Shown piece by piece: positions 3,813-41,820 of a DNA stretch of 64,000 bases. Below the pieces are notes generated by a model. The model was not told where the DNA came from and made no database searches. It saw nothing but the letters and a program-made list of their open reading frames with translations. The stretch is from Plantactinospora soyae. Lineage in GTDB: Bacteria; Actinomycetota; Actinomycetes; Mycobacteriales; Micromonosporaceae. Position numbers and translations under genes: made by a program. How positions within the stretch are numbered: position 1 is the stretch's first letter; each line of letters opens with the position of its first letter. Location of the stretch: positions 5,828,001 through 5,892,000 of the forward strand of contig NZ_JADBEB010000001.1 in assembly GCF_014874095.1 (NCBI RefSeq), given 5' to 3'.

Positions 3813-5615
3813 TCAGTCGAGGGTGTATGCGCGGCTGCTGATTTCGTAGAGTTCGGCGTACACCCCGCCCGCGGCGAGCAGGCTTTCGTGCCGCCCGGTC
3901 TCCACCAGGCGACCGCCCTGCATCACCAGGATCAGATCGGCGCCCGAGACCGTCGAGAACCGATGAGAGACGATGACGGTGACAGCGCCGGTCCGGGCGG
4001 CGAGATGGCGGGCCCGACGGACGTAATGCTCGAAGATGGCCCGCTCGCTGGGCGCGTCCAGCGACGCGGTCGGCTCGTCCAACACGAACAGCAGTGGCTC
4101 GTGTCGCATGCAGGCACGCGCCAGCCCGATCTTCTGCCACTGCCCCTCGGACAGTTCCCAACCGCCGAACTCGCGTCCCAAGGGTGTCGCCAGGCCATTC
4201 GGAAGCCGCTCGATCAGGCCGTCGGCGTCGGCGGCGGACACCGCTTCGAGGATGCGGCTCCGAGACCCGAGGTGTGGCAGGTCACCGAGGCCGACCGCCT
4301 CGCCCAACAGGGTGTGGTACCGGCCGAAGTCCTGGAACGTCACAGCCAGGCGCGCCCACCAGGAGGTGCCGTCCAGGTCGGCGAGGTCCGTGCCGTCCAA
4401 CAGGATCCGGCCGCTGCTCGGACGATGGAACTTGCACAGCACCTTCACCAGGGTGCTCTTGCCCGAGCCGTACTCGCCGACGATCGCGACGACGCTGCCT
4501 GCGGGAAAGTGGGCGGTGACGTCGTCGAGCGCGGCCCGATCGCTGCCCGGGTAGCGATAGGTCAGGTGCTCCAGCCGGATGCCGTCCCGCAGTGTCCGGG
4601 GTACCGCAGCACCGGCGGCCCGATCGTCGCCGTGCCCTCGCTCCCGGGCCGCGTAGTCCCGCAGCCACAGGTACGGCTCGAGCAGAACCGCGGAACTCGC
4701 CGTCAGCACCGACCGGGTCACCGCCTGCTGCACCAGGCCGCGCAGGCTGGTCGCAATCGCGATGGCGAGCACGACGTCACCGATGCTGCCGGCCCCACCC
4801 GCAGCGTCGTGGACGACCAGCGCGAGGGCCCCCGCGAAGCCGAGGGTGAAGATCGTCCACCCGCCGGCCGTCCACGCGGCGCCCACCAGTTGGGCTCGGA
4901 ACCGGGCCTCGTGGGCGGCGCGGAACGCGGCCGCCTGGCGGCGAATCAGTTCCGGCCCGGCCCCGGTGACCCGGATCTCCTTGCCGGAAGCGGCGTCGGT
5001 GGCGAGGTCGAACAGGTGACGCTGAAACCGCATGTCCTCAGCCGTCTCCGTCTCCGTCCGGATCACCGCCCGCCGGCCCCGGGTGTCGAACCACAGCGGG
5101 ATCACGGCGAAGGCCAACAGCAGCAACAGCAGCGGGCTGACCGTACTCAGCAGAATGAAGATGATCGCCAGCCGGACGACGTTGACCATCGCGTCGAGGG
5201 CGTTCCAGGCCGAGGCCAGCACTCCCCAGGAGGCGCCACGCAGTAGATCCACCCGGTCCAGGAAGTCACCGCGCTCCAGATGGTCCATGGTCTCGATGCC
5301 ACAGACATCTCGGAGGATCTCGGCGTCCAGTACCAGGAGCCCGGCCCGGTCCACCAGGTTGATCTTTACGGAGTTGCCGAGATACTCGACCGTCACGTTG
5401 ACGGTGTGCGCGGCCGCGGCACCGACCGCTCCGAGAATGGCAGCGTGCAGCACACCCGCGGTGCTGGAGTCCAGCGCCGACCGCAGCGCCAGCCCGGTGG
5501 CGGGAACCGTCACCAGGCTCAGCAGCCGGCAGGCGAACGCCGCCGCGGTCAGCCCCGGATAGTGCACGAAGCAGAGCCGCAGCAGCCGCCACCACAGTCG
5601 CGGGTATCGGGTCAC
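3813..5615 (-). CDS. ABC exporter half-transporter, subunit 2
   Basis: This 600-residue protein has an N-terminal transmembrane exporter domain (about residues 15-330, several hydrophobic helices) fused to a nucleotide-binding domain. It has Walker A GEYGSGKST, a non-canonical signature LSEGQ, Walker B FVLDEPTASLD and the H-loop VSHR. The start is the GTG at 5615, which overlaps the stop of the upstream half-transporter (GTGA); a longer frame upstream lies inside that gene. The pair probably forms a heterodimeric exporter with one degenerate and one consensus ATP site, as in other heterodimeric ABC exporters. It closes the divergon with the radical SAM and sulfotransferase genes, so export of a modified peptide or small molecule is the likely job. 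The substrate is unknown. Confidence 0.9.
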   Translation of the reverse strand: MTRYPRLWWRLLRLCFVHYPGLTAAAFACRLLSLVTVPATGLALRSALDSSTAGVLHAAILGAVGAAAAHTVNVTVEYLGNSVKINLVDRAGLLVLDAEILRDVCGIETMDHLERGDFLDRVDLLRGASWGVLASAWNALDAMVNVVRLAIIFILLSTVSPLLLLLLAFAVIPLWFDTRGRRAVIRTETETAEDMRFQRHLFDLATDAASGKEIRVTGAGPELIRRQAAAFRAAHEARFRAQLVGAAWTAGGWTIFTLGFAGALALVVHDAAGGAGSIGDVVLAIAIATSLRGLVQQAVTRSVLTASSAVLLEPYLWLRDYAARERGHGDDRAAGAAVPRTLRDGIRLEHLTYRYPGSDRAALDDVTAHFPAGSVVAIVGEYGSGKSTLVKVLCKFHRPSSGRILLDGTDLADLDGTSWWARLAVTFQDFGRYHTLLGEAVGLGDLPHLGSRSRILEAVSAADADGLIERLPNGLATPLGREFGGWELSEGQWQKIGLARACMRHEPLLFVLDEPTASLDAPSERAIFEHYVRRARHLAARTGAVTVIVSHRFSTVSGADLILVMQGGRLVETGRHESLLAAGGVYAELYEISSRAYTLD

Positions 5616-7501
5616 ATCGGCTCGCTGTCGATACGGTCGTCGTAGCCGTGGGTGAATCGCTGAGCCTGGATGCGGAACATGGCGGCGTACGACCCGTCGA
5701 GGCGGATCAGTTCCTCGTGTGTGCCGCATTCGGCGACTCGCCCACCGTCGAGCAGCACGATCCGGTCGGCCCGGCGTACGGTGGAGAGCCGGTGCGAGAT
5801 GAGCACGACACTGGCCCGGCCCGGCCGGGCCAACAGCCGGCCGAACAGCTCGAACTCGCTGCGCACGTCCAGGTGTGCGGTCGGTTCGTCCAGGACCAGC
5901 ACGCGGGCACCGGTGTGTACGGCGTAGAGCGCTCTGGCGAGCACCACCTGCTGCCACTGTCCGCCGGACAGGTCGACGCCGCCGGAGCGACCCCTGGCCA
6001 GCGGTGTCCGCCAGCCGTCCGGTAGCCGGGCGAGGAGGTGCTCCAGGCCGGCCTCGGCGGCAGCCCTCTTCCGTGCGGACGAGTTGGGCGGCACGACACC
6101 GTTCCCGAGCGTCACGTTGTCGGCGACAGACATCTCGTATCGGACGAAGTCCTGGAAGACGACGGAGAGGCGCTGTTGCCAGGCACCGATACCGAGCTGG
6201 CGGATATCGACACCGTCGGCGGTGATCCGGCCCGCGTCCGGCTCGTACAGTCCGGCCAACAGCTTGATCAGCGTCGACTTCCCGGTGCCGTTCAGCCCGA
6301 CGACGGCCAGTAGCTCATGCGGGTGAATGGTCAGGTTCAGGCCGTCGAGTACCGGACGCCCGGTGCCCGGGTAGGCGAAGCGGATCCCCGACAGTTCCAC
6401 CAGCGGTGTCCGGGTCGGCACCGCTCCGTCCGACCGCGTTCCAGCCCTGCCGTTCGACATCGGCGGCAGCACCCGGGTCAGGCCGCCCGGGAAATGGGAG
6501 GTGCCGAACTCCTCGCGCAGTCGCGCCATGGCCTGTAGCACCGGCAGCGCGCCCTCGATGTCCCCCGACTCGTCGAAGGTGCCGCCGACGGCGAGGTACA
6601 CACCCAGGCCGGCGGCGAACACGGCGGTCTGCACCGCGGCTGTCGTGTTCCCCTGCGTGACCGCGTGGGCCACGGCCGCGTAGCCGATGGCGAGCGGCAC
6701 GAACATGATCGCCGCGGTCGCGGTACTTCTTCGCCAGAGGCGCCGATTGAACGCCCACACCGGATCCAGCGAGGCGTGGATGCCCTGTGCCACTCGGTCC
6801 ACGGCCCACTCACCGAAGCCGTACACCCGCTGCTCCTTGCCCACGGCCGGGGACATGACCAGGTGCTTCCAGTAGTCGGCACGTCGACCCTGCCGTACCC
6901 CCTGGGCCCACAGCCGGGCCAGCTTGACGAAGTCGCGGCTGCGCACCGCACGCCCGACGAGCGCGGGCACGGCCAGGAGGGGGATCAACCACCAGGCGTA
7001 CGCGGCCAGCACCGCGGCGGCGCCGGCCGCGCCGACGTAGCGGGCGAGAAGGTGGAGCTGGGCGAGGGCGCCGTCACCGGGAGTCTTCTCGGTCCAGTTG
7101 CCGGGATCCGCCGCGACGAGGCGGATCCGGTCCCGGACTTGCGGGTCCTCCAGGCGGTCGAGGCTGGGGACCGCAGCCGCCAGACTCGCCACCTCGGCCC
7201 GGTGCGCACCATCGATCCGCGTCCTCACCAGGTAACGCAGCGGTTCGATGGCGGCGTCAACCAGATGGCCCAGCAGCAGGACCACGACGAACAGCGCCAA
7301 TGGTAGGGCCGCCGAGGAGAGGCCGCCGACGGCCAGCTGCACGTGTCCGATCAACAGGCCCATTGCCGCCGCCGAGGCCGCCGGGATCAGGGCGGACACC
7401 GCGTACGCGACGCTCAACGCGCCTACCGAGCCGGCACCGGCGTGGCGCAGCGCACCGAGCAGCATCAGCCGCCCCCGGAGCAGGGGCATCGGGCTGATCA
7501 T
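5612..7501 (-). CDS. ABC exporter half-transporter, subunit 1
   Basis: The transmembrane domain (about residues 15-330) is followed by a nucleotide-binding domain with canonical Walker A GLNGTGKST, signature LSGGQ, Walker B VLVLDEPTAHLD and H-loop ISHR. The ATG at 7501, preceded by a G-rich stretch, is preferred; a GTG at 7537, 9 bases after the radical SAM stop, is possible and would add 12 residues. Because this subunit keeps the consensus LSGGQ while its partner has LSEGQ, the two probably pair as a heterodimer. The gene is directly downstream of the radical SAM gene on the same strand, so co-transcription is very likely. Confidence 0.9.
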   Translation of the reverse strand: MISPMPLLRGRLMLLGALRHAGAGSVGALSVAYAVSALIPAASAAAMGLLIGHVQLAVGGLSSAALPLALFVVVLLLGHLVDAAIEPLRYLVRTRIDGAHRAEVASLAAAVPSLDRLEDPQVRDRIRLVAADPGNWTEKTPGDGALAQLHLLARYVGAAGAAAVLAAYAWWLIPLLAVPALVGRAVRSRDFVKLARLWAQGVRQGRRADYWKHLVMSPAVGKEQRVYGFGEWAVDRVAQGIHASLDPVWAFNRRLWRRSTATAAIMFVPLAIGYAAVAHAVTQGNTTAAVQTAVFAAGLGVYLAVGGTFDESGDIEGALPVLQAMARLREEFGTSHFPGGLTRVLPPMSNGRAGTRSDGAVPTRTPLVELSGIRFAYPGTGRPVLDGLNLTIHPHELLAVVGLNGTGKSTLIKLLAGLYEPDAGRITADGVDIRQLGIGAWQQRLSVVFQDFVRYEMSVADNVTLGNGVVPPNSSARKRAAAEAGLEHLLARLPDGWRTPLARGRSGGVDLSGGQWQQVVLARALYAVHTGARVLVLDEPTAHLDVRSEFELFGRLLARPGRASVVLISHRLSTVRRADRIVLLDGGRVAECGTHEELIRLDGSYAAMFRIQAQRFTHGYDDRIDSEPM

Positions 7502-7546
7502 GTGCGGTACCCCGCCGTCAGACTGCTGGGGCGGCACCGACCGACA

Positions 7547-8566
7547 TCACGGCCGGTCGCCGCCGGGGCTCGACCGTGGACGGACGGATCGGAAACACGG
7601 ACAGCGCTGGCACACCTCGTTCGTGGCCACGTCGAGCTCGGCGCGCCAGTGCACCGCAGCCGGCGAATTGACGACGGCGTGCAGGTCTCCCGCCTCGTGC
7701 AGGTTTCCGTAGGGCTCCAGGAAGAAACAGGGCCGGACGGTGCCGTCCACCTCGACGACTGCGGAGTCCCACGGGCGGCTGCAGGTCCGGTCGGCATGCT
7801 CCGCCAATCCGTGGAAGGCTCGGTAGTGCCCGTACAGGTACGTCCGTAGGTGGCTGGGCGACTCTTCAACGAGACCACTGGCGTACGAGTCGGCGCACTC
7901 CTCGGAGAGACGGTCGATCTCCGCTGCCAGCCGGGGCAGTTCGGCGGCCGGTACGGCCAGGTCGTGCTGTCGAGCCTCGTCCCATCCGCCGCTCCGGTTG
8001 AACGCCTCGGTGGTCAGATCGGCGGGGATGAAGCTGATCCGGTCTATGCCGAGCCGCTGCGCCGTACGCACGGTCTCCGGCAGGTGCCGGTAGTTGTAGC
8101 GGTGCACGGTACACCTGGCGAAGAGGGTGAAGTCCGGGTTCACCTTCCGCACCGCCGCGATGCCGGCCTCCAGCAACCGGAACGCATGCCGTACCCGGCG
8201 GACCTCGTCGTGGATCGTCGGCGGGCCGTCCAGGCTGACGAGAACGGCATCGAACCACGTGGTCACCTGTTCGGCGTACCTGCTCAGCAGCGGTCCGGTG
8301 GAGAGCAGTTCCAGCTTCATCCCGCGCTCGCGTAGCGGAGCGGCGATGCCGAACAGATTTCGGTGCATCAGTGGCTCGCCGCCGACGAGGACGACCTTCC
8401 GCACACCCAGCGCCGCCCACTGGTCGGCCCAGCGTTTCACGTCTGTGGCGTCGATCTCCCGACGAGACGTGTCTTGCCAGATGTCACACGACACGCAGCG
8501 CTGGTTGCAGCCCGCGTGTGGCCAGATGAACAGTTCGGACAGGGACGAGAGCACGTGTGCCACCAC
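7547..8566 (-). CDS. Radical SAM protein with SPASM-like C-terminus
   Basis: The protein has 339 residues. The [4Fe-4S]/SAM motif CxxxCxxC is at C20, C24 and C27, with GGEP at 62-65 for SAM binding. The C-terminal part contains a CSRPW block, a PCFF block and a CQRCPCF cluster, resembling the auxiliary-cluster (SPASM/twitch) regions of peptide- and sugar-modifying radical SAM enzymes. The GTG at 8566 has a strong GGAGG 5 bases upstream. It lies between the sulfotransferase and the exporter genes on the same strand. The family suggests radical modification of a peptide, nucleoside or sugar. No precursor peptide could be recognised in the 163 bases upstream, so a RiPP role is unproven. Confidence 0.85.
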   Translation of the reverse strand: MVAHVLSSLSELFIWPHAGCNQRCVSCDIWQDTSRREIDATDVKRWADQWAALGVRKVVLVGGEPLMHRNLFGIAAPLRERGMKLELLSTGPLLSRYAEQVTTWFDAVLVSLDGPPTIHDEVRRVRHAFRLLEAGIAAVRKVNPDFTLFARCTVHRYNYRHLPETVRTAQRLGIDRISFIPADLTTEAFNRSGGWDEARQHDLAVPAAELPRLAAEIDRLSEECADSYASGLVEESPSHLRTYLYGHYRAFHGLAEHADRTCSRPWDSAVVEVDGTVRPCFFLEPYGNLHEAGDLHAVVNSPAAVHWRAELDVATNEVCQRCPCFRSVRPRSSPGGDRP

Positions 8567-8729
8567 TACCTCCAGGTCCAGAGAGGTGTACGGAAGGCCG
8601 CAGCCTGCCTGCGGTCATCGCCTTTGTAGGTAGTGGGCTCTCAGCTCTCCAACCGGCGGTGGTGCGCGTCTCCCGCGTGACTCCGTCTCTGCGAGCAGTG
8701 ACCGGTCGACCGTCGGCGGCGAAGGGGTT

Positions 8730-9530
8730 TCACCGGAGGCCGCACCGTTTCCGCACTTCCGGTGGAAGGCCGGCTGCGATTCCGCTGCCGACCAGCTCCG
8801 TTCGAAAGCGTTCGGCAAATTCCTTGTTCAGGCTGGTACGCAGCACCTCGAGGTCGGAATTGGGTACGACCGTGTGCCGTACCCGAAGATATGCCAGGGC
8901 CTCCGTCGCCGCGCCCGCCGGGTCGGCCGCGAGATCCTCGTATCTGACCAGGTACGGTGCGATGCCCCGCTCGTCGAAGTAGCGGCGCCAACTCTTCTCG
9001 TCTTCCTGGATCACCCCGAGATAGTTGACCAAGAAGGAAAACTCGTACTCCGGTGGCTTGCTGGCGGGTCCCGCCGAGTTCTCGATATCGACGGTGGGTT
9101 CGCTGGTCCGTCGGTGGTAGATCCTGGTGGCCTCCGCAATCATCGCCGACACCGCCTGGGCAACCATGTCGTCCCGCCAGACGTAGATGTGCATCAGTTC
9201 AGGGCCGCGACGCTCGAACAACTCGAACGGGTCGATCCCGAGCCTCTCGCGACACCACGAAACCTGGTCCCAATGCACCTTGGCGGCCCGGGCGCCATTC
9301 TGGACAGCGAACTGGCGCGCATGCCGGAGGTAGTCGAATCCGGCACTCGGTTTCGGCTGCTGGCGGGTCGATCCCGGCGCCGCACCGCCCCAGGCAGTGA
9401 GGTTTACGTGCACTGAGCCACGGAAAAAGACCTCTCTCGGCGCCCCGGCTCCCGGAACGCTGGCCAGGGTGCTGCACAGCAGGCTGCTCCCGCTGCGTGG
9501 ATTGGCACACACGATGTATTCCAGCACCAC
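8730..9530 (-). CDS. Stf0-family sulfotransferase
   Basis: The N-terminus carries the PAPS 5'-phosphosulfate loop CANPRSGSSLL right after the first strand. Later blocks (YVWRDDMVAQAVS and LVRYEDLAADP) match the Stf0 group typified by mycobacterial trehalose 2-sulfotransferase. The enzyme would move sulfate from PAPS to a hydroxyl, usually on a sugar. I chose the GTG at 9530 because GGAGG at 9540-9544 is well spaced for it and Stf0 proteins start close to the PAPS loop; ATGs at 9539 and 9575 and a start at 9593 are alternatives. It is the first gene of the operon sulfotransferase, radical SAM, ABC, ABC. The acceptor is unknown; three glycosyltransferase-type genes nearby suggest a glycosylated intermediate. 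Confidence 0.85.
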   Translation of the reverse strand: MVLEYIVCANPRSGSSLLCSTLASVPGAGAPREVFFRGSVHVNLTAWGGAAPGSTRQQPKPSAGFDYLRHARQFAVQNGARAAKVHWDQVSWCRERLGIDPFELFERRGPELMHIYVWRDDMVAQAVSAMIAEATRIYHRRTSEPTVDIENSAGPASKPPEYEFSFLVNYLGVIQEDEKSWRRYFDERGIAPYLVRYEDLAADPAGAATEALAYLRVRHTVVPNSDLEVLRTSLNKEFAERFRTELVGSGIAAGLPPEVRKRCGLR

Positions 9531-9593
9531 GGCCCCCATCCTCCGTGTCACTCGACACCTGCGACGGTACGTCATAGATCGACAGACGTCCAC

Positions 9594-9971
9594 CTGGACC
9601 GCGCATTTCCGCGAGGCGGGTTGCGGACGGCGAGCTGGTGATAGCGAATGGTTACGGGACGGCGGTCTTTCGAGTGGATTGACGCCGCGCTGGACGTGAG
9701 GTCGCCTGTCGATTCGGGCCGGCCGTCGACGGTCGCCCGCCCATAGCCGCCCTGCGTGCGTTGGACCTTCTGCCCGGTCACCCTCCCTCGCGGGATCTCG
9801 TGATGAATAGCTACCGGAACTTCTCGTCTCCGCCGGGTGGCGTATCGATCAAGGTCATGCAATACTCGTCTCGAAAGATCAGCAGATGCCTATGGCACCC
9901 GCGACTGTAGCTGTCCTGAACCGGCTCATGCCGATCGCTGGCCGAGTCCCGGACCAAGGAGAGAAGTCCCG
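9594..9971. other. Intergenic region between divergent operons
   Basis: This is the stretch between the leftward sulfotransferase operon and the rightward methyltransferase-glycosyltransferase pair. It is less GC-rich than its surroundings, as expected of a divergent promoter region. I see no convincing coding frame, hairpin or palindrome in it. Confidence 0.4.
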
Positions 9972-10127
9972 ATGTCTGCGCGAAGAAGAAGCGCCGTCCA
10001 TCGTCTACCTGGCGCGCCGCAACGATCAGTACGTCGCCGCTGGGTGTCCGCCCAGGCATGCGGCCAGGCGGCCCTGTCGGTCGCCTCGGGTGCGAGTTTT
10101 CGCGCGGGATCGGAATTGTCGGCTTGA
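9972..10127 (+). CDS. Possible 51-residue ORF with strong ribosome binding site
   Basis: ATG at 9972 is preceded by AAGGAGAG (9956-9963) at a workable distance. The 51-residue product has an arginine-rich first half and an Ala/Ser/Gly-rich second half, and ends 92 bases before the methyltransferase start. Codon use is mixed: another frame across the first part has higher third-position GC, so this could be chance or a decayed gene. Small size, a good Shine-Dalgarno and its place in a radical SAM/sulfotransferase cluster make a leader or precursor peptide conceivable. No known precursor motif is recognised. Confidence 0.25.
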   Translation: MSARRRSAVHRLPGAPQRSVRRRWVSAQACGQAALSVASGASFRAGSELSA

Positions 10128-10219
10128 CTGGCGGAGAGGGGGCGCCCGCGGTGGCGAGCGGGCAAGCGTGCCACCACGACGACCGTCGTGCCGCGAGCGA
10201 CCGCAGGGACATTATCGCG

Positions 10220-10837
10220 ATGCAGGCGCTGGCTCCGTTGTCGTCGACCTATCTACCGTGGACCGTGAGTGCGATGCGGCCCAGTGGGGTCGTCGCGGTG
10301 CTGAACGAGATTGTCGTCAACCGGCGTCGTGCAGTTCTCGAGTTGGGCGGTGGCGTCTCAAGCTTCTACCTCGGCCGCCTACTGCGGAACCGGGGCGGGC
10401 ATCTCTGGACGGTGGAGCACGACGAGCGCTGGGCGGATCTGCTGGAACAGGATCTGGTGGGCGAGGGTCTGGATGGTGTGGTCACGGTCATCCGGGCTCC
10501 GCTGACACCGATCCCTTGCGGATGGCCGGGCGAGGATGCCGTCTGGTACGAACGTGAGAGGCTCATGGGTGCGCTCGCGCAGGTACCTGTCGACCTGCTC
10601 GTCATCGACGGGCCTCCCGCCTACCAGACCGGCCAGGAACATTCTCGGTATCCCGCCGTTCCTCTTCTGTCTCCAACGCTCGCCGACGACTACGCCATCG
10701 TCCTTGACGACATCAACAGGCCCGGTGAGCAGGAAATCATGCGGTGTTGGGAGGAGCAGTTCGAGCTGACGTTCGAGCGCCGCATCGTCGATGGCGGGAT
10801 CGGAATCGGTCGCCCCCGGCCCGCATACACCGTTTGA
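10220..10837 (+). CDS. Class I SAM-dependent methyltransferase
   Basis: This 205-residue protein has the pattern YLPWTVSAMRPSGVVAVLN, then motif I VLELGGGVSSFYLGRLL, an acidic strand (TVEHDERW) and VDLLVIDGPP. These features are typical of a small Rossmann-fold methyltransferase family often found in glycan or natural-product clusters. The ATG at 10220 is chosen because family similarity begins immediately after it; an in-frame extension upstream to 10058 shows no family sequence. The gene is followed 36 bases later by the PLOD-like glycosyltransferase, likely in one transcript. The substrate is unknown; a hydroxyl or carboxylate on the glycosylated product is plausible. Confidence 0.75.
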   Translation: MQALAPLSSTYLPWTVSAMRPSGVVAVLNEIVVNRRRAVLELGGGVSSFYLGRLLRNRGGHLWTVEHDERWADLLEQDLVGEGLDGVVTVIRAPLTPIPCGWPGEDAVWYERERLMGALAQVPVDLLVIDGPPAYQTGQEHSRYPAVPLLSPTLADDYAIVLDDINRPGEQEIMRCWEEQFELTFERRIVDGGIGIGRPRPAYTV

Positions 10838-10873
10838 CGCGCCACCTCGGCGTGTCCGGTTCGGAGGTTAGGG

Positions 10874-11773: not shown

Positions 11774-12044
11774 ATGTTGCCCGGGGGGGTTTGGTTGCAG
11801 TGGGCAGAACCTGGGGACGGGTGGCTCGGCGTGGCGTATGTCCAGTTCAGAGGTGCTCCTGACGCGGTAGGACGTGGGGCGTGCTCGCCGCCCCGATCAA
11901 CGTGGACGCCGTGTTCACCCGCGCCTGAACTCCGCTCACCCATCCCGGTGCCTTCAGGCGCCGCCGAGGCACTGAGACGGGCCTGTCTCGTGAACGGCAC
12001 CGCTTGAGCCGGCGCCCTAGTCTGGTGGGCCAGGCGGGTCGGCC
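11774..12044. other. Left interior of the transposable unit, no gene seen
   Basis: The stretch lies between the left inverted repeat and the blaI-like stop. It shows no resemblance to a transposase 3' end and no convincing reading frame, so nothing of the IS other than its end survives on this side. Confidence 0.4.
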
Positions 12045-12452: not shown

Positions 12453-12460
12453 CGCCGATC

Positions 12461-12466
12461 ACTGTA
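12461..12466 (-). promoter_or_regulatory. Putative -10 element for leaderless blaI-like gene
   Basis: On the minus strand TACAGT lies 8 bases upstream of the ATG and no ribosome binding site is seen between them, the pattern of a leaderless actinobacterial transcript. Confidence 0.4.
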
Positions 12467-12543
12467 TCGGGCTGGTGCGGTGCATTCGTCATGCCCGCCC
12501 GCGTTACGACGTGGCACACTCGATCGGTCGCGGACGGAGGGGC

Positions 12544-13455: not shown

Positions 13456-13486
13456 CAGCCTGATCGGAACCGAGCCCGAGGCGGCG

Positions 13487-13529
13487 ACGAGTGACTATAC
13501 CCAGTACTCTACTCAGTATAGTCACTCGT
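13487..13529. promoter_or_regulatory. 14-bp-arm palindrome upstream of padR, probable operator
   Basis: ACGAGTGACTATAC (13487-13500) and GTATAGTCACTCGT (13516-13529) are perfect inverted arms around 15 bases that contain TACTCT. The right arm ends one base before the GGAGG (13530-13534) of padR, and the spacing covers the expected promoter. PadR proteins bind such palindromes, so autoregulation of the padR-ABC-FtsX operon is likely. Confidence 0.75.
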
Positions 13530-13539
13530 GGAGGCAGTC

Positions 13540-34201: not shown

Positions 34202-34788
34202 CGGGACCGACGCGTCCGGTCGTGGCGGCCCGACTCGGCTGGGAGGACGAGTACCGTCGAGGGCGCTGGGGCTACCTGGCCGACGCGGTCGAATCGGCCC
34301 GGTACGCGGCGATCGCGGCCCACATCGGGCCGACCGCCCTGGTGCTCGACGTCGGCTGCGGCGCCTCCGTTCTCTATGACGTGCTCGGCGGGCCGCGGCG
34401 TCCCGGCGCCTACCTGGGCGTCGACTGGTCGCTGGCCGCGCTGCGGTCGGGCGGCTGGGGCCCCGGTCACGGGGTCGTCTGCGGTGACGTCAACGACCCG
34501 CCGGTCCGCGGTCGCTCCGACGTGATCGTGCTGAGCGAGGTCCTCTACTACCTCGACCGGCCGATGGACGTGGTCGACCGGCTGCACGCATCCCTGACCG
34601 ACCACGGCGTCCTGCTGATCACGCTGTACCGACCGACGGTCGACCGGCATCCCGAGTGGGCGCGGTACATCGACGCGTTGGCTGCGGGGCTGCTCGTCCG
34701 GTTCCCGGACATGCCTCCGGCCGAGGTTGTCCGGACCGGCCGGCGGACGTGGACTCTCCATGCGCTACCCGCCCCAGGCTCCGGCTGA
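34198..34788 (+). CDS. Class I SAM-dependent methyltransferase
   Basis: This 196-residue protein starts at an ATG that overlaps the fusion-gene stop (ATGA). Motif I is LVLDVGCGASVLYDVL, and VIVLSEVLYYLDRP and VLLITLYRP match the NodS/Methyltransf_23-like group. Small methyltransferases of this group often N-methylate amino sugars, which would fit its coupling to an aminotransferase. That link is inference. Confidence 0.8.
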   Translation: MTGPTRPVVAARLGWEDEYRRGRWGYLADAVESARYAAIAAHIGPTALVLDVGCGASVLYDVLGGPRRPGAYLGVDWSLAALRSGGWGPGHGVVCGDVNDPPVRGRSDVIVLSEVLYYLDRPMDVVDRLHASLTDHGVLLITLYRPTVDRHPEWARYIDALAAGLLVRFPDMPPAEVVRTGRRTWTLHALPAPGSG

Positions 34789-34814: not shown

Positions 34815-35717
34815 ATGGGACCGTTGCTCGAATCCACGTTGGACGACCACCTGCGGGAAAGACTCCGCCGGGATGGTTACGTGTACCTGCCCGGCCTGCG
34901 TACGGACGAGGAGACGGGTCCGCTCCTGGCCGACCTCCGGCGCGTACTGGCCGACGCCGGTTGGCTGGCCGATCCCGTCGAATGGCGGGTCGCTGCCGAG
35001 GCCGGGCTGACCGCCAACTCGTTCTGGACCGTCTACCCGGCCGTGCAGGCGCTGGAGAGCCTGCACCGGTTCGCCCACGGGACCCGGGTACGGCAGGTGG
35101 CCCGGGCGATTCTGGGCGGTGAGGTGTTCTGCCATCCGGCGAAGGTCGCCCGGCTGACCCCGCCGACCACCGTCGACCGGGCGTACAGTACCGATGCTCA
35201 TCAGGACTTCGTGAAGCTGCATGTCGAGCCGGACGTGCTGACGGTCTGGACGGCCCTGACCCCGTGCTCGCCGGACCGTCAGGGCCTGCGGGTGCTGGCC
35301 GGCTCACACCGGCGCGGCTTCCTCGCGGTGGAACCGGAGCTGGGCCGGTCCCTGCCGGTCTACCTTCCGGTGGCGGCCGACGATCCACGGTGGTTGACCG
35401 CCGACTTCGCGGTCGGTGACGTGGTGGTGTTCCACAGCCTGACCGTCCACGGTGGCGGACCCAACCGGACGAGTGAACTCCGGTTGTCGACCGACGTCCG
35501 TTACCAGCGCCGGGACGCGCCGATGCGCCCCGAGCACGCTCAGCCGCACGGCTGGCCCGAGACACCCGGGTGGGAGAGCCTGACCGCAGGGTGGCGGGAC
35601 CGGTCGTGGGTGACCGCGCCGCCAGACGTCGTACTGCGTCCGATGCCGGTCGGGGTGTCGTACGCGGAGTACCTGGCTGAGCTGTCCGTTCCGCGTTCTC
35701 GATTGCTCGGTCGATGA
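34815..35717 (+). CDS. PhyH-family Fe(II)/2-oxoglutarate dioxygenase
   Basis: This 300-residue protein is set by GGAGGA near 34800-34806 and the ATG at 34815. It has the phytanoyl-CoA dioxygenase pattern: DGYVYLPGL at the N-terminus, HxD at H129/D131 (DAHQDF), distal H212 in TVHGGGPN and an Arg in RLSTDVRYQ for 2-oxoglutarate. It would hydroxylate, desaturate or otherwise oxidise an intermediate. It is the last gene of the rightward operon SARP, GT-aminotransferase, methyltransferase, PhyH. Confidence 0.88.
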   Translation: MGPLLESTLDDHLRERLRRDGYVYLPGLRTDEETGPLLADLRRVLADAGWLADPVEWRVAAEAGLTANSFWTVYPAVQALESLHRFAHGTRVRQVARAILGGEVFCHPAKVARLTPPTTVDRAYSTDAHQDFVKLHVEPDVLTVWTALTPCSPDRQGLRVLAGSHRRGFLAVEPELGRSLPVYLPVAADDPRWLTADFAVGDVVVFHSLTVHGGGPNRTSELRLSTDVRYQRRDAPMRPEHAQPHGWPETPGWESLTAGWRDRSWVTAPPDVVLRPMPVGVSYAEYLAELSVPRSRLLGR

Positions 35718-35731: not shown

Positions 35732-36697
35732 CTACCGCCAGCCCGTCCGGTGCCGGATCCAGTCGCGGCAGGTACGCGCCTGCGCCCGCTGCCAGGGCCG
35801 GGGGTCCCACAGGCCCGGTGGCGGTGGCAGATGTTCCTGTTCGGTGTAGAAGCCAGCGGCCGCGACCGCCGCCGCGGTCACGCCCTCCGAAGGTGCGTCG
35901 CGCATGCTGGGGGAGTGCGCGAGAACCCACTCGGGTTCGGGGCCGCCCATCGTCGTCACGGTCGGGGCGAAGTTGACCACGTCGAGCCAGCCGGGGCCGA
36001 GACTCGCCCACGGCCAGTCCACCAACATGACCTCCGCCCCGGCCAGCACGATGTTGTCAGCGCGGAGGTCGCCGTGCAGCAGGCCGTCCCCGTGGGTGAG
36101 GCTGGGCCAGGTCGCCTCGACCGCGGCCAACCGTTCGAGATTCCGGCGCGACCAGTCGTCGAGATCGGCCGGCGGTGCTTCGGCGAGTCGCTGCCAGGCC
36201 CGCAGCGCCGTCGCGTTGGCCACGGCAGCCTGCTCGAGGCCGTCGACCCGCGCCGGCGTGTTGCGCCGCTGGAATTCGGCCAGCGCGGTCAGCACCCGCA
36301 GTACGTCATCGTTCCGCCACGGCAGGCGCGGGGTCGTACCGCCGACATCGTCGGACATGAGCGCGACCCAGACCCCGTCGTCGTAGCCGCCCCACAGGGT
36401 CGGTACCGCCGGATCCGTGTGCAGACCGGCCGCCACCCGCAGTTCGCGCCGGTGCAGCTCGGCTGAGCGCTCGTTCACCCGTGAGGAGACCGCTTTGACG
36501 AACGCACGGCGACCACCGGACGTGCGAAGCCGGCAGACCGCACCCGGCGAGAAACCACCGGCCGTGGTCACCGCCTCGACGACCGGCCCACCAAGAAGTC
36601 CCTCAGCCCAGTGCCGGACCTCGTCCGGCAGATCCGCCCAGGCCGTCCGATGGCTCCCGTTCGACAGGAGCGAACTCAGGCCGGGCGCTCCGGTCAC
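35732..36697 (-). CDS. APH-family phosphotransferase
   Basis: This 321-residue protein has an N-lobe nucleotide-binding pattern, catalytic loop HGDLRADNI and a metal-binding Asp in VMLVDWPWA: the aminoglycoside phosphotransferase/choline kinase fold. It is adjacent to the MetRS gene on the same strand, so the pair is probably co-transcribed. In antibiotic clusters such kinases often protect the producer by phosphorylating the product, or act in biosynthesis. The histidine phosphatase at 25139 could reverse it. Substrate unknown. Confidence 0.85.
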   Translation of the reverse strand: MTGAPGLSSLLSNGSHRTAWADLPDEVRHWAEGLLGGPVVEAVTTAGGFSPGAVCRLRTSGGRRAFVKAVSSRVNERSAELHRRELRVAAGLHTDPAVPTLWGGYDDGVWVALMSDDVGGTTPRLPWRNDDVLRVLTALAEFQRRNTPARVDGLEQAAVANATALRAWQRLAEAPPADLDDWSRRNLERLAAVEATWPSLTHGDGLLHGDLRADNIVLAGAEVMLVDWPWASLGPGWLDVVNFAPTVTTMGGPEPEWVLAHSPSMRDAPSEGVTAAAVAAAGFYTEQEHLPPPPGLWDPRPWQRAQARTCRDWIRHRTGWR

Positions 36698-36698: not shown

Positions 36699-38246
36699 TC
36701 ACAGCTCGATCCTCGGGAAGATCGGACCCGCCTTGACCACCTTACGGCCGGCCAGTTCGGTCAGCGAGTCGAGGCTCGCGGCCGGGTCCTCGCCGACCGC
36801 GCCGAGCAGCCGACCGCTGCCGGCCGGAATGAACGGCCGCAGCAGGATCGCGATGCGTCGTACGACGTCGATGCCGCAGTACAGCACGGCGTCCAGCGTA
36901 CGGGCCGCGTCCTCGTCACCGGCGTCGGCCGCCTTGGCCAGGTGCCAGGGTGCCCGCTCGCCGACGTAGGCGTTGCTGCGCCGGACCAACTCGCCGATCC
37001 GGGCCAGCGCCTCCCGATGGTCGAACCGGTCCATCGCGGCCACACTGTCGCGGACGGCGTCGGCTGTCCGGGACTCCAGTTCAACCTCGAGGTCGCCGGC
37101 CTCGCCTCGCGCCGGCACTGTCCCGCCCCGGTACCGTTCCACCATCGAGGTCAGCCGGCTGGCGAGATTGCCGATGCCGTTGGCGAGATCGTTGTTGTAC
37201 CGGGCGACCAGGCGCTCCTCGGCAAAGTCGCCATCACCGAACGGGGAGAGCTCGGCCAGCAGGTAGTACCGGACGGCATCCTGCCCGAAGGCGGCGACCA
37301 GTTCCTCCGGGTCGACCGCGTTACCGAGAGACTTGCTCAGTTTCTGGCCGGCGTTGGTGATGTATCCGTGCACCATGACGTCGGTCGGCAGCGGCAGCTT
37401 GGCCGCGAGCAGCATGGCCGGCCAGTAGACGGCGTGGAATCGCAGCACACCCTTGCCCAGGACATGGATGCGCCGCTCGGCGTCGGCCCAGTAGCGGTGA
37501 TAGCCCGGGTCGTCCTGGATCCAGTCGAACGTGTTGATGTAGTTGGTGAGCGCGTCGATCCAGACGTACATGACCTGGCTCGGATCCCCGGGAACCGGGA
37601 TGCCCCAGCCGCGCGCCCGGGTCGCCGACCGGGAGATGCTGATGTCGGCCAGGCCGCTGCGGATGAAGCTGAGCGTTTCGTTGAGCCGGGTGTGCGGGTG
37701 GACCTGGAGTCGGCCCGACTCGATGGCCTCGGCGAGTTGGTCGCCGTAGCGGGACAGTCGGAAGAAGTAGTTGCGCTCGCTCACCAGCTCCGGCTCGACG
37801 AGGTGCTCCGGGCACTTCCCGTCGACGAGGTCGGACGGCTCGTAGAACTGCTCGCAGCCGACGCAGTACAGGCCAGCGTAATCCTTGGCGTAGATGTCGT
37901 CGTTGGCATCGAGCCGACGCCAGACCTCCGCCGCCCCGGCCAGGTGGTGCGGGTCGATGCTGGTGCGGATGAACGCGGTCGTTACGACGCCGAGCGAGGC
38001 CAACAGCTCCTCGAAGTAGCTCACGTTGCGGTCGACCAGGGCCTGCGTGGTCATGCCGGCCTTCTCGGCGGCCAGCACGTTCTTCAGGCTGTTCTCGTCC
38101 GAGCCGGTGAGGAAGTAGACCTCACGGCCCGTCATGGTCAGATGCCGGGAGATCGAGTCCGCCTGGACGTACTCGAACGCGTGCCCGAGATGCGGACGCG
38201 CGTTCACATAGGGGATCGTGGTGGAAACGTAAGCGGTGGCTGGCAT
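36699..38246 (-). CDS. Methionyl-tRNA synthetase, probably a second copy
   Basis: This 515-residue class I synthetase has an HLGH nucleotide-binding motif (19-22), a CP-domain zinc-type block CVGCEQFYE with a further Cys in GKCPEH, the KLSKS loop (302-306) and a C-terminal helical anticodon domain. It has no C-terminal tRNA-binding appendix. Sequence suggests an active enzyme that charges tRNA-Met. Because it sits between an APH-type kinase and a divergent S66 peptidase in a SARP-controlled locus, it may be a resistant duplicate protecting against a product that hits MetRS, or a supplier of activated Met. Whether another metG exists in the genome cannot be seen here. Confidence 0.9.
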   Translation of the reverse strand: MPATAYVSTTIPYVNARPHLGHAFEYVQADSISRHLTMTGREVYFLTGSDENSLKNVLAAEKAGMTTQALVDRNVSYFEELLASLGVVTTAFIRTSIDPHHLAGAAEVWRRLDANDDIYAKDYAGLYCVGCEQFYEPSDLVDGKCPEHLVEPELVSERNYFFRLSRYGDQLAEAIESGRLQVHPHTRLNETLSFIRSGLADISISRSATRARGWGIPVPGDPSQVMYVWIDALTNYINTFDWIQDDPGYHRYWADAERRIHVLGKGVLRFHAVYWPAMLLAAKLPLPTDVMVHGYITNAGQKLSKSLGNAVDPEELVAAFGQDAVRYYLLAELSPFGDGDFAEERLVARYNNDLANGIGNLASRLTSMVERYRGGTVPARGEAGDLEVELESRTADAVRDSVAAMDRFDHREALARIGELVRRSNAYVGERAPWHLAKAADAGDEDAARTLDAVLYCGIDVVRRIAILLRPFIPAGSGRLLGAVGEDPAASLDSLTELAGRKVVKAGPIFPRIEL

Positions 38247-38395
38247 GACCCCTCTTCGCGGCCGTTATCGGCATCGCACCTCGCGGCTAGCTGGCTGAGG
38301 GCGCGGTGTGCGGACTGCAGTCTACTCAATTCCGGCTCCTCGGTCGGACCCGGATCACACGCCACCATACCGTCACGAATCGTAGTGATCGATCG

Positions 38396-39394
38396 ATGAC
38401 TCGAGCCATGATACTTCCACCCGGACTCCGCCCCGGTGACGCGGTAGGGCTGATCAGCCCGTCCGGCCCGGTCCGTACGCCGGCTCGGCTCGCCCGGGCG
38501 GCCGACGCGCTGGCCGACCTCGGACTACGCCCCGTTATCGGGGAGATCGGCGCGACCGGCCGGACCGGGGCCGGCCCGGCCGAGCGAGCCGGTGAACTCA
38601 ACGCGTTTCTCGGCGACGCCGATATCAGGGCGGTGATCGCCACCATCGGTGGCCACACAAGCAGCGAACTGCTACCCCTGCTCGACTATGACGCGCTGCT
38701 GGCCGATCCGAAGGTCATCATCGGCTACAGCGACATCACCGCCATCCTGCTCGGCGTCTATGCCCGGACCGGTCTGGTGACATTTCACGGCCCGACCGCA
38801 CTGGCCGAGCTGGGCGAGTATCCACGGCCGTTGTCGGGCACCTCGGCGGGACTCGTCGCGGCGGTGCGGTGCGGCGATCCGGTCGGCGAGCTCCGGCCCG
38901 CGCGGGAGTGGACCGAGGAGTTCCTGGCCTGGGACCGCGACGACCACCGACCCCGGGTCACGAGGACATCGGACGGTTGGGCGTACCGGGGGAGCAGGGT
39001 CGTGACAGGTCGCCTGATCGGGGGCAACCTCGACACGATGGCCGCCCTGCTCGGCACGCCGTACTTCCCGGACCTCGCCGGAGCGGTCCTGTTCTGGGAG
39101 ACGCTGACGACCGATCTAGGCGAGATCGACCGGCTCCTGCACCAGTTGGTCCGCAGTGGTGTCCTCGACGACGTGGTCGGCCTGCTCGTCGGTCGTACCT
39201 TCCGTGGCAACCCGGGCCTGGAGGCTGACGTTCGGCGCCTGGTGGCCGAGCGGTTCGCCGACCCGGACATTCCCGTTGTCACCGGCATGGACATCGGACA
39301 CACCGACCCGATGCTCACGCTGCCGATCGGGGTACGGGCCCGGATCGACCCGGGCGCCCAGCAGGTGGAGATCCTCGATGCAGCCATCCGGTGA
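38396..39394 (+). CDS. S66 peptidase, LD-carboxypeptidase/MccF-like
   Basis: This 332-residue protein has the S66 layout: PGDAVGLISPSGP at the N-terminus, nucleophile S112 in IIGYSDITAI, Glu235 in LFWETLTTD and H302 in GHTDPMLTLPIG as the likely Ser-Glu-His triad. The ATG at 38396 or 38408 is the start. The family includes murein LD-carboxypeptidases and MccF, which cleaves aminoacyl-adenylate-type toxins such as processed microcin C and gives immunity. Its location divergent to a MetRS and upstream of a ProRS-like gene makes the MccF-like self-immunity role attractive. A cell-wall role is the alternative. Confidence 0.85.
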   Translation: MTRAMILPPGLRPGDAVGLISPSGPVRTPARLARAADALADLGLRPVIGEIGATGRTGAGPAERAGELNAFLGDADIRAVIATIGGHTSSELLPLLDYDALLADPKVIIGYSDITAILLGVYARTGLVTFHGPTALAELGEYPRPLSGTSAGLVAAVRCGDPVGELRPAREWTEEFLAWDRDDHRPRVTRTSDGWAYRGSRVVTGRLIGGNLDTMAALLGTPYFPDLAGAVLFWETLTTDLGEIDRLLHQLVRSGVLDDVVGLLVGRTFRGNPGLEADVRRLVAERFADPDIPVVTGMDIGHTDPMLTLPIGVRARIDPGAQQVEILDAAIR

Positions 39395-39815
39395 CCTGCA
39401 GTCCGTGCTGTGTAGACACGGATTCGAGGAGATCCTGGCCGTGCCGGCCGTACCGGACGTACCCGGATCACCGGTCCGCTACGACCGGGCAGTCACGGTC
39501 GAGCCCGGCGGCCAGACCTGGTACGTCCGTGCCTTCGGCACCGGGTTCAGCATTCTGCCGCCGCAGTGGCTCCGCGGCGGATTGACCCGGGTCTACTCAC
39601 TCGACGGCCCGCTGCTGCTCGCCCAGGCGGTCCTCGACACCGAGGCCGAGGCAGCGGGGCTCGGTCGGGCGATCGTCGCGGACCTGGCATCGATCGCGCC
39701 GCGGCTGGCTCACGAGGTGCGGCCCGATCGGCGGCGCTGGAGCCTCGTCGTCGCGGCCGAACTGGCCGTCGGGCCGGCCGTGGTCACCGGGTCGACGGGG
39801 ACGGTGCCGGGGTGA
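39378..39815 (+). CDS. Unrecognised 145-residue protein
   Basis: The ATG at 39378 overlaps the end of the S66 peptidase gene and the stop overlaps the GTG of the ProRS-like gene, so translation is coupled on both sides. The protein is Arg/Val/Ala-rich, with possible mixed alpha-beta character (ILAVPAVPDVPGSP, then TWYVRAFGTGFSILPPQWL), and has no signal or membrane segment. I do not recognise a family. The tight coupling suggests that it works with one or both neighbours, perhaps as a partner of the synthetase-like protein. Confidence 0.7.
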   Translation: MQPSGDLQSVLCRHGFEEILAVPAVPDVPGSPVRYDRAVTVEPGGQTWYVRAFGTGFSILPPQWLRGGLTRVYSLDGPLLLAQAVLDTEAEAAGLGRAIVADLASIAPRLAHEVRPDRRRWSLVVAAELAVGPAVVTGSTGTVPG

Positions 39816-41038
39816 GCGCGCCGTACCACAGGGCCCTCGTCGAGGCCGAACTGATCGCGGCCACCGCCTACCCGGGTGGCATCACGGTGTGGCGCTCACG
39901 TGGGCTCCGGCTGGTAGCGGCCCTGGTCGAACAGTTCCGGGCCGAGGTCGCCAGCGTCACCCCGGCGGTTCCGGTCCACCACGGGTTCCTGCAGAGCCTG
40001 GCCGACTACCGGCGGGTGTTCCCCACCTACACCAACGTGTTCACCGCCGGCGAGCACGTCCTGCGGGCGGACAACATGCACACCAACGTGGCGCACATCC
40101 GGGCGTCCGGCCAGGGACCGGTCGTCTCGGCGAACGGATTGATCCGTAGCCTGCGTGGCGGCCCGGCGCCGCTGTTCCGTGAACGGCACATCTGGCCGGC
40201 GATCCAGCTCAACGATGTCGTGCCCCGCTCGGTCGCGGTGAGCCGGCTCGCGCACTACGCGGGCGCGCTGGAACGGACCCTCGCCCGTGCCGGCCTGCCG
40301 GCGATCACCATCGAGACCGGGCCGATCGGCGGCTACGGACGGCTGACGTACCTGACGGTCGCCTCGTTGCCGGACGGCCGCCCCACCATCGTCGCGACCG
40401 CCTACGTCATGGCTGACCGGTACCGCGAGGCGCTCGCCGTACCGGGCGACGTCATCGATGTCGGCTTCACCGGCAAGGTCATCGCGCTCCTCGCCATGCA
40501 CCATCGGGATCGGATCGGCCTGCAACTGCCGTCACGGTTGGCCCCGGTGCAGGTCGGGGTGGTGAGCAGTGGTCCGCTGGCGGCGCGATGGCTGGACTCG
40601 CTGGGTCGGGCCGGACTACGGGTCGAGGTCGTCAGCCTGCCCGTCGCCTCCGACACGGCGGGACGGCGGGCGCGTGCCGAGCGACGTCTGCTCCGGCTGG
40701 GCGTCCCGGTCGTGGTCGGTCTGCGAGAGAACCGGCCCGACGTACGGGTGACGACGCGACGCCCCTTGACCAGGGAGTGCGTGGATGACCTCCCCACCGC
40801 CGAGCGGCTCGCGCAGTTGCTGGAGGCGCACGATCGACGTCAGGCGGAACTGGCCGGGGAACGGTTCCGCCGGGGTCTGCGGGCGACCGGGCTGATCCGG
40901 GGAATCTGTCCGGCCTGCGCCGGCGAGCAGGGCGCCCGGGTGTACGGCTGGATCCGGCCCAGCCGACCGGTGGCCTGCACGACCTGCCAACGACCGGGCA
41001 CGGAGGCGCTGGTCACTGACTCGGGCCGCTTCTACTGA
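39812..41038 (+). CDS. ProRS-like class II synthetase paralogue with altered motif 3
   Basis: This 408-residue protein starts at a GTG that overlaps the preceding stop. It is recognisable by a motif-2-like LFRERHIWPAIQL and the prolyl-synthetase block GLQLPSRLAPVQV that joins the catalytic core to an anticodon-type domain. A C-terminal Cys-rich end (CPAC and CTTC) recalls the zinc region of archaeal-type ProRS. The motif 3 Arg expected before this block is Lys (GFTGKVIALLAMHH), and much of the core is divergent. Canonical Pro-tRNA charging is therefore unlikely; roles such as aminoacyl-adenylate ligase, editing or regulatory subunit are possible. Family assignment is by pattern only. Confidence 0.65.
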   Translation: MSAPYHRALVEAELIAATAYPGGITVWRSRGLRLVAALVEQFRAEVASVTPAVPVHHGFLQSLADYRRVFPTYTNVFTAGEHVLRADNMHTNVAHIRASGQGPVVSANGLIRSLRGGPAPLFRERHIWPAIQLNDVVPRSVAVSRLAHYAGALERTLARAGLPAITIETGPIGGYGRLTYLTVASLPDGRPTIVATAYVMADRYREALAVPGDVIDVGFTGKVIALLAMHHRDRIGLQLPSRLAPVQVGVVSSGPLAARWLDSLGRAGLRVEVVSLPVASDTAGRRARAERRLLRLGVPVVVGLRENRPDVRVTTRRPLTRECVDDLPTAERLAQLLEAHDRRQAELAGERFRRGLRATGLIRGICPACAGEQGARVYGWIRPSRPVACTTCQRPGTEALVTDSGRFY

Positions 41039-41058: not shown

Positions 41059-41820
41059 GTGTCGATCCAACTCATCGTGCAGGCCGACGACTACGGCATG
41101 TGCGCATCGGTCACCGACGGCATCCTGGCCGCCCACCTGTCGGGGAGTGTGACCCAGGCTTCGATCATGGTGCCGGCCCCGGACGCCCGCCGGGCGATGT
41201 GGTTGGCCGGCCGGCAGGGCCTGCCGCTCGGCGTCCACCTCGTACTGGCCTGCGAGTGGGAGTACTGGCGCTACTACCCGTTGACGGCGGCGAGCAGCCT
41301 GCGGGTGGACGATGGCGCGTTTCCGCCCGGGATCGCGGAGCTGCGGCAGCAGGCCGACCCGGCGGAGGTCGTGGCCGAGTTGGAGGCACAGGTCGCCGCG
41401 GTCCGGCTCGCCGGAATCGAACCGACGCATGTCGAGTCCCATGTGCGCGTCTACGACCCGACGGTGCTGGCCCGGCTGGCCGCGCGGTGGGGCGTGTGGT
41501 GCCGTGACGAGCTGTCCCCACCGGTCGATCCGCCGCTGACCACCCTCTGGCACCTGTCCACCCGTCCGCCGTCGTCCAAGCTGGCCGACCTGCTGGCCCA
41601 TGTCCGGTCCCTGCCGGACGGGCTGCACATGATCGTGGCGCATCCGGCGGTGGACGGTCCCGAGCTGCAGACCTTGTGCCGGCCGGATTCACGCCGATGG
41701 CGCTGGGCCCGCGAGGTCCGGGTGACCGATCTGATGGCTCTGACCGATCGGGCTTTCGCGACCACCTGCGCCGAGCAGGGCGTCGAGCTGGTCAGCCTGG
41801 CCACGCTGCGGGTTCCGTAA
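41059..41820 (+). CDS. ChbG/YdjC-like carbohydrate deacetylase
   Basis: This 253-residue protein, from a GTG start 20 bases after the ProRS-like stop, has a GGAAAGG ribosome binding site at 41042-41048. The metal-site pattern VQADDYGMC, GVHLVLACEW and the distal His in THVESHVRVY match the YdjC/ChbG family, which removes acetyl groups from N-acetylated sugars. It would deacetylate an N-acetylhexosamine unit of the product or its precursor, fitting the glycosyltransferases in the locus. It closes the S66, unknown, ProRS-like, deacetylase operon. Confidence 0.85.
   Translation: MSIQLIVQADDYGMCASVTDGILAAHLSGSVTQASIMVPAPDARRAMWLAGRQGLPLGVHLVLACEWEYWRYYPLTAASSLRVDDGAFPPGIAELRQQADPAEVVAELEAQVAAVRLAGIEPTHVESHVRVYDPTVLARLAARWGVWCRDELSPPVDPPLTTLWHLSTRPPSSKLADLLAHVRSLPDGLHMIVAHPAVDGPELQTLCRPDSRRWRWAREVRVTDLMALTDRAFATTCAEQGVELVSLATLRVP

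Follow-up and report, generated by a model that had tools for sequence, protein, structure and literature searches.

The stretch of the Plantactinospora soyae genome analysed here (64,000 nt of contig NZ_JADBEB010000001.1, positions 5,828,001 to 5,892,000; hereafter the window) belongs to a genome of one 9.7-Mb contig and holds a group of genes that includes a homologue of AgnA, an asparaginyl-tRNA synthetase (AsnRS)-like enzyme of agrocin 84 biosynthesis. A previous, sequence-only reading described a locus of specialised-metabolite type at 3813..41820, built on tRNA-synthetase-like enzymes (abbreviated below as AsnRS, ProRS and so on) and probably making a nucleotide product, and the homologues of agrocin 84 (agn) genes that we found agree with it. 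They suggest that the core of the locus, at about 25.1-41.8 kb, probably encodes an agrocin-84-type pathway to an N-acyl-phosphoramidate nucleotide, likely directed against methionyl-tRNA synthetase (MetRS). Since agrocin 84 has at least five of the genes, including the rarest, the earlier statement that such a set of genes matches no pathway described so far was mistaken; judged by its genes, an agrocin-84-type pathway in actinomycetes with MetRS in place of LeuRS would be a variant on a known pathway.

Table 1. Features of the window, with positions counted from its first nucleotide
Feature	Position	Strand	Basis
AgnA homologue: AsnRS-like catalytic core without anticodon-binding domain	27610..28632	-	PF00152
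Small protein u39k, precedes ProRS-like/AgnC1 genes	39378..39815	+	Hidden Markov model (HMM); unannotated pAgK84 counterpart
ProRS-like protein, AgnC1 homologue	39812..41038	+	29% to AgnC1 over 268 amino acids (aa)
Extra full MetRS, proposed self-immunity synthetase	36699..38246	-	PF09334 and Anticodon_3; HLGH and KLSKS present
MccF-like S66 peptidase, AgnC5 homologue	38306..39394 (limits of open reading frame, ORF; domain from about 38402)	+	37% to AgnC5
S-adenosylmethionine (SAM) methyltransferase MT_a	26723..27553	-	Pfam
SAM methyltransferase MT_b, AgnC3 homologue, start from alignments	25941..26702	-	Pfam methyltransferase; 36% to AgnC3 over 234 aa
SAM methyltransferase MT_c, start from alignments	34240..34788	+	Pfam; 40-42% in G104, G114
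PhyH-type dioxygenase, AgnC6 homologue, start from alignments	34845..35717	+	PF05721; 34% to AgnC6 over 259 aa
GSA-type aminotransferase with conserved N-terminal extension	32009..34201	+	PF00202
ChbG/YdjC-type deacetylase	41059..41820	+	PF04794; 51-57% in G104, G114
Histidine-phosphatase-superfamily protein	25139..25690	-	PF00300; 39-49% in G114 and G104
APH-like kinase	35732..36697	-	Named by eye and sub-cut-off NCBIfam kinase matches; no Pfam match
SARP/BTAD regulator	31369..32211	+	PF03704
Response regulator and histidine kinase	29172..30961	-	Pfam
Orphan MbtH-like protein	28800..29057	-	PF03621
NADAR-domain protein and B12-binding radical SAM protein, adjoining IS4-type transposase	22003..25078	-	Pfam
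Shared genus DNA: BlaI-like, M48-type peptidase; PadR, ABC, FtsX, EfeUOB named by eye	12032..20945	.	
Island A: two ABC proteins, SPASM radical SAM (28% to AgnC7), Stf0, methyltransferase, GT_PLOD	3813..11761	.	Pfam

Limits of the locus and conservation of its core

Flanking DNA was sought in five relatives (G092, G104, G058, G032, and G113). Since the intervening 12.0-20.9 kb occurs in a relative without the cluster, the 38-kb locus as first drawn is two islands, 3.8-12.0 kb (island A) and about 21.0-41.8 kb (island B). That relative, G092, belongs to the genus of the window and has no AsnRS-like match; window positions 12,032-13,449 and 17,266-20,940 adjoin each other in its genome at 86-93% identity. 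In G104, a relative of the same genus taken as Plantactinospora alkalitolerans, 12.05-14.06 kb and most of 14.11-20.9 kb were found on contigs other than the cluster's, and G058 holds 12.04-13.45 kb at 77% identity, while a search of G032 and G113 for the 12.0-20.9 kb stretch gave no such match. From 41.84 kb on, window DNA is present in all five relatives. The DNA at 12032..20945 is thus outside the pathway, and the membership of island A, which it separates from the core, is uncertain. The NADAR and B12-binding radical SAM pair also has an uncertain role.

Conservation in relatives extends over about 25.1-41.8 kb. Thirteen island-B genes co-occur, in differing orders, in G104 and in G114, a member of another genus of the same family: those for the AsnRS-like protein, PhyH, MT_a, MT_b, phosphatase, ChbG, MT_c, the aminotransferase fusion, the ProRS-like protein, u39k, S66, the kinase, and MetRS. 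The sequence-only reading would have been overturned by relatives with these genes scattered and unlinked, and instead the core genes were found linked in both. No match in the G104 and G114 stretches was obtained for Stf0, GT_PLOD, the island-A methyltransferase, both radical SAM proteins, NADAR, MbtH, or the two-component system, the absence from the G104 cluster resting on one 53.5-kb contig. Because Stf0 lies in island A and is among these, the sulfated product once proposed is unproven; GT_PLOD and the radical SAM genes, which had also been counted in the locus, are located in island A or next to the transposase. Common to G104 and G114 and not found in the window are a radical SAM protein, a P450, an AMP-binding enzyme, and an FkbM-like protein (all four named by eye). 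The detailed locus comparison left aside the second G114 locus, G062, G045, and G172.

A Pfam scan of 30 window proteins bore out most of the genes listed in the sequence-only reading, and no non-ribosomal peptide synthetase (NRPS) or polyketide synthase was seen among these 30 ORFs, only two of which come from 41.9-64 kb. Glycosyltransferase domains claimed for two fusions were not supported, as over cut-off Pfam gives only NADAR for the 22003-23712 product, at its C-terminus, and only an aminotransferase for the 32009-34201 product. Neither N-terminal part has a Pfam match over cut-off, and that of the latter product found nothing in a PDB sequence search at E<=1. The aminotransferase fusion is 57-60% identical over 695-713 aa in G104 and G114, with the alignment starting at about 32162. 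Among the other core genes, MT_b is also present in L022/G104, L067, G114, and G124; the kinase shows 32-46% identity in G104, G114, and L067; and the G104 and G114 copies of MT_c weakly resemble the agn MT2 protein (28-31% over 97-99 aa). The G104 cluster holds a larger ORF with 28% identity to the window SARP, and the two-component genes have a 66% DNA match elsewhere in G113. Outside the core, a gene at 3-1931 resembles PEP (phosphoenolpyruvate)-utilising enzymes (named by eye), and the C-terminal part of its product is 38% identical to AgnD1 over 107 aa.

Relationship to the agrocin 84 cluster

A tblastn search of 72,556 plasmid records found AsnRS-like relatives in 23, six of them from Agrobacterium or Rhizobium and including pAgK84, where the relative is annotated as agnA, 'Agrocin84-synthetase'. 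According to a review, agnA is a truncated AsnRS homologue that lacks the anticodon-binding domain and serves as a biosynthetic enzyme, and agnB2 encodes an immune LeuRS (PMC4392301). In TM84, the toxic part of agrocin 84, a stable N-acyl phosphoramidate replaces the anhydride found in Leu-AMP, and AgnB2 is the resistant LeuRS (PMC5059758). Agrocin 84 belongs to a small group of phosphoramidate nucleotide antibiotics (PMC6429109).

We compared 21 proteins of pAgK84 (CP000632.1, Rhizobium rhizogenes K84) with the window proteins by BLASTP and ran the reverse tblastn at E<=1e-3. Results showed homologues in the window of AgnA (43% over 336/340 aa), AgnC5 (37%), AgnC3 (36%), AgnC6 (34%), and AgnC1 (29%), and an ABC protein of pAgK84 is 32% identical to one of the window. 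Annotations in pAgK84 include 'MccF-like protein', 'Agrocin 84-resistant leucyl-tRNA synthetase', and 'phytanoil-CoA alpha hydroxylase protein'; AgnC1 is a 'hypothetical protein', its likeness to the ProRS-like protein having been found in this analysis. The two clusters differ in the full-length resident synthetase, which is LeuRS (AgnB2) in the agrocin cluster and MetRS in the window, where AgnB2 itself found no counterpart beyond a match of 31 aa. Aminotransferase, ChbG, phosphatase, kinase, and SARP are additions on the window side.

In the AsnRS-like protein, the arginines of motifs 2 and 3 (Arg115 and Arg313) are invariant in 85 of 85 aligned rows. The pocket of the AgnA type is Leu-Glu, compared with Leu- or Ala-Glu in AsnRS structures and Lys-Gln in the class IIb outgroup. 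The ProRS-like protein has a predicted structure (AF2, pLDDT 83) that matches the archaeal/eukaryotic-type ProRS fold. Its C-terminal Tyr is kept, while the Thermus ProRS residue that we take to be the class II motif-3 arginine is not, being aligned with Lys222, a lysine in 9 of 9 rows. The adjoining u39k has a weak class II synthetase-like fold. In pAgK84 (L146), an unannotated ORF of about 139 codons between agnB2 (end 24300) and agnC1 (start 24711) matches u39k (HMM E 4e-9), and by this likeness it probably represents a gene of the agrocin 84 cluster that annotation overlooked. The S66 protein had MccF entries as its first 11 among the PDB matches listed.

Phosmidosine, from Streptomyces, is a prolyl phosphoramidate of 8-oxoadenosine with an O-methyl group. 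It is an actinomycete phosphoramidate nucleotide (PMC6429109) and would fit a set of AgnA-type, methyltransferase, and synthetase-like genes; among the matches listed, no gene cluster for it was found. Microcin C (mcc) clusters likewise have an MccF-type peptidase and rely on N-acyl-phosphoramidate nucleotide chemistry (PMC7157772, PMC12250964); there, however, a ribosomal peptide is what the ThiF-type enzyme MccB adenylates. The Pfam results for the window showed neither MccB nor a precursor peptide, no search aimed at either having been made.

Distribution of AgnA-type loci

One scan of a genome collection found 117 AsnRS-like relatives, and the best 80 loci, 27 of them shorter than 20 kb, were examined with our own gene calls and HMMs. 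Within the stretches retrieved, S66 genes were present in 60 of the 80, methyltransferases of either family in 57, and both in 50; 13 had neither. Another synthetase-like gene accompanied 48 loci (own HMMs at 1e-6, truncated and full-length enzymes pooled), and 33 combined S66, methyltransferase, and synthetase-like genes. Some of the full-length synthetases, e.g., in L043, L062, and L086, may be housekeeping genes. By chance, S66 would be expected at 0.44 loci in 1.48 Mb, as against the 60 of 80 seen, the background having been taken from eight genomes of a single family, which hold 21 copies, those in clusters included. With taxonomic grouping taken from record titles, S66 occurred in 31/38 loci of actinomycetes, 16/24 of Bacillota, 7/11 of proteobacteria and myxobacteria, 4/4 of the candidate phyla radiation (CPR), and 2/3 others. 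The MT_a family was found in 18 of the 80 loci and the MT2 family stood beside it in only one of these, where nine would be expected (P 1e-5, relatedness ignored), as if the two families replace one another.

Resident class I enzymes score over the NCBIfam cut-off as LeuRS in L033, L036, and L088, as CysRS in L092, and as MetRS in L043, L048, L067, and L086; those of L062 and L082 score below. A LeuRS stands at the AgnA-type locus of an annotated Xenorhabdus bovienii plasmid (L149), and plasmids of Peribacillus and Exiguobacterium (L159, L160) encode, close to AsnRS-like, methyltransferase, and S66 genes, both a short AlaRS-related protein and an annotated 'alanine--tRNA ligase'. AgnA-type genes were seen on the plasmids L147-L149 and L159-L162 and on those of Pantoea agglomerans (H2-H6, H8), the hosts being Streptomyces, Pantoea, Xenorhabdus, Peribacillus, and Exiguobacterium (with CDP-sugar genes and a deoxynucleoside kinase); the Pantoea gene is annotated as a GNAT acetyltransferase. 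An unnamed family of about 370 aa, F23, occurs in L045, L063, L065, L070, L076, L087, L091, and L095 (CPR, Bacillota, and others) and may be a further partner of AgnA-type loci.

The extra MetRS, alternative explanations, and the proposed pathway

The cluster MetRS is not the single-copy enzyme of the genome, which would have spoken against the sequence-only reading: an ordinary MetRS, 32% identical to it, lies at 2.81 Mb. That reading was also right that synthetase paralogues occur as amide-forming or self-resistance copies. Since an extra MetRS parallels the AgnB2 LeuRS that gives immunity against agrocin 84, the cluster product is probably aimed at MetRS. The ordinary MetRS was found in 11 of 13 genomes at 79-100% identity and was missing from G114 and G034. 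Compared with G079, it is deleted from its syntenic place in G114 (G114:C1 near 6457985-6458029), and only its two ends remain in G034 (G034:C1:5633485-5633641). Both genomes, which are of one genus, carry a cluster-type MetRS. In G114, which has the cluster, this is the cluster MetRS (65% identity); in G034 (64%) no other cluster gene was found around it and the genome gave no strong AsnRS-like hit. The loss of the ordinary enzyme speaks for tRNA charging by the cluster-type MetRS in vivo. It also argues that some lineages gained by dropping the ordinary MetRS, as expected with a MetRS poison about, other reasons being possible. In G124, a LysRS-like gene (named by eye; G124:C1 near 3727800-3729300) adjoins MT_b and S66, and is possibly another target or a housekeeping gene.

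Several results weigh against an agrocin-84-type, MetRS-directed pathway. Of 200 genomes of the family, 69 have such a MetRS (E<=1e-60, 40-91% identity), and very few of these have an AgnA-type gene as well, so that a MetRS in the cluster is weaker evidence of the target than it might seem. The MetRS tree, in which several rows (L067, L120, and L127 among them) are long-branched, intermixes cluster and stand-alone forms, and the 60 kb read from G124 contain AsnRS-like, MT_a, MT_b, and S66 genes but lack a MetRS. AgnC2, AgnC4, AgnD3, AgnE1, AgnE2, AgnF, AgnG, and two NUDIX genes were unmatched in the window by tblastn at E<=1e-3; the seven agn genes may serve agrocin-specific tailoring and transport. 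AgnD1 matches over only 107 aa, outside the core, and the 28% match of AgnC7 (radical SAM) falls in island A and may reflect general radical SAM similarity. The MT2-family methyltransferase adjoining agnA (Arad_15003) has no full homologue in the window, where it matches only MT_b over 79 aa; the MT_a family may stand in for it. The MbtH-like gene, with no match in the relatives' loci searched and no NRPS seen nearby, is unexplained by such a pathway. Finally, a ProRS-like enzyme beside MetRS is an odd pairing unless the enzyme uses a substrate other than proline. By analogy it need not use proline, since AgnC1 accompanies a leucine-like acyl group in agrocin 84.

Four other explanations were considered. 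The extra MetRS could be biosynthetic, supplying Met-tRNA or Met-AMP, and it does stand in-cluster in four Micromonosporaceae (window, G104, G114, and G189), two Catenulispora, and Streptantibioticus (distant MetRS, 35-36%). However, it is a full-length enzyme whose motifs are intact and which has an anticodon domain, it appears capable of standing in for the ordinary MetRS in G114 and G034, stand-alone copies of it are common, and AgnB2 offers a precedent for immunity (PMC5059758), so that a biosynthetic role appears unlikely. We give still less weight to the AsnRS-like protein being an ordinary tRNA-independent asparagine synthetase that feeds Asn to an unrelated pathway. Its best NCBIfam models are 'asparagine synthetase A', several plasmid relatives are annotated so, and archaeal asparagine synthetase A (PDB 3p8t, an AsnRS-related chain of 294 residues) is among its PDB matches. 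Yet its scores fall far under the curated cut-offs (PRK06462; 209.7/322, 176.3/389, 74.6/368, and 67.9/309), and the best matched stretch of 3p8t covers window AsnRS-like residues 241-333 only. A relative with a described role is AgnA, of an antibiotic pathway, and linkage to MccF-like genes across phyla would be unexpected for a simple Asn supplier.

A sulfotransferase-dependent route to a nucleoside sulfamate or sulfonamide, of the ascamycin or SB-203208 type, seems equally improbable. The Stf0 gene at 8730-9593 would suit it, MccF-like enzymes might cleave such products, and AcmF (ascamycin) and SbzA (SB-203208) are synthetase-like enzymes that aminoacylate natural products (PMC12945691). 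But Stf0 lies in island A, beyond DNA of a cluster-free relative, and is unmatched in the loci and relatives' clusters searched; moreover, AcmF is AlaRS-like and SbzA IleRS-like, neither in the AgnA family, whereas the window enzyme is an AgnA homologue. Least probable by far is a chance neighbourhood of horizontally acquired genes with no single pathway. The first-drawn locus is indeed interrupted, and island A and the NADAR/B12 radical SAM pair lack counterparts in the G104 and G114 clusters, but the 13 core genes recur as a group, differently ordered, in two further genomes, of which one belongs to a separate genus, and for the core this explanation is disfavoured.

N-acyl-phosphoramidate nucleotides are stable mimics of aminoacyl-adenylates. 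In the agrocin-84-type pathway proposed here, the AsnRS-like enzyme would use ATP to make the P-N or acyl-phosphoramidate link, and the ProRS-like protein with u39k would activate the acyl part, a mimic of the target enzyme's amino acid. The methyltransferases, PhyH, aminotransferase, ChbG, phosphatase, and kinase would tailor the acyl and sugar parts. The extra MetRS would charge tRNA despite the product, as the AgnB2 LeuRS does against agrocin 84, and the MccF-like peptidase would either remove stray aminoacyl-nucleotide (immunity) or perform a biosynthetic deacylation. The parts of the literature cited here give no description of how the acyl-phosphoramidate bond of agrocin 84 forms.

A bolder and more tentative possibility, drawn by analogy, is that AgnA-type loci encode a modular and widespread pathway by which aminoacyl-adenylate mimics are made without the ribosome. 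MccB spends two ATP on converting a C-terminal Asn first to a succinimide and then, with AMP, to a phosphoramidate (PMC12250964), and MccF cuts the carboxamide between aspartamide and AMP (PMC7157772). Similarly, the AsnRS-like enzyme might activate free Asn and close a succinimide, as MccB does on the peptide's C-terminal Asn, and the Asn nitrogen might pass onto the nucleotide phosphate to give aspartyl-NH-P-nucleoside. S66 might then strip Asp as a biosynthetic step, leaving a nucleoside 5'-phosphoramidate. An interchangeable synthetase-like enzyme (ProRS-like with u39k, AlaRS-like, or ThrRS-like) would load the acyl group and the methyltransferase would cap the phosphoramidate, while the resident full-length synthetase (LeuRS, MetRS, CysRS, or AlaRS) would protect the host and reveal the target. 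A biosynthetic S66 would account for its constancy, which equals that of the methyltransferase, and for its presence even beside a resistant synthetase; a role in immunity, as in microcin C, is the plainer alternative.

For the agrocin cluster itself, the comparison points to an overlooked gene and to a fold for AgnC1. With the agrocin synthetase linked to a recurring set of genes at 80 examined loci of widely separated phyla, the bond-forming step becomes testable in many small operons, and a cluster's likely target may be readable from the sequence of its resident full-length synthetase. The window cluster is predicted to make a MetRS inhibitor, and in two relatives the cluster type seems to have taken over from the ordinary MetRS.

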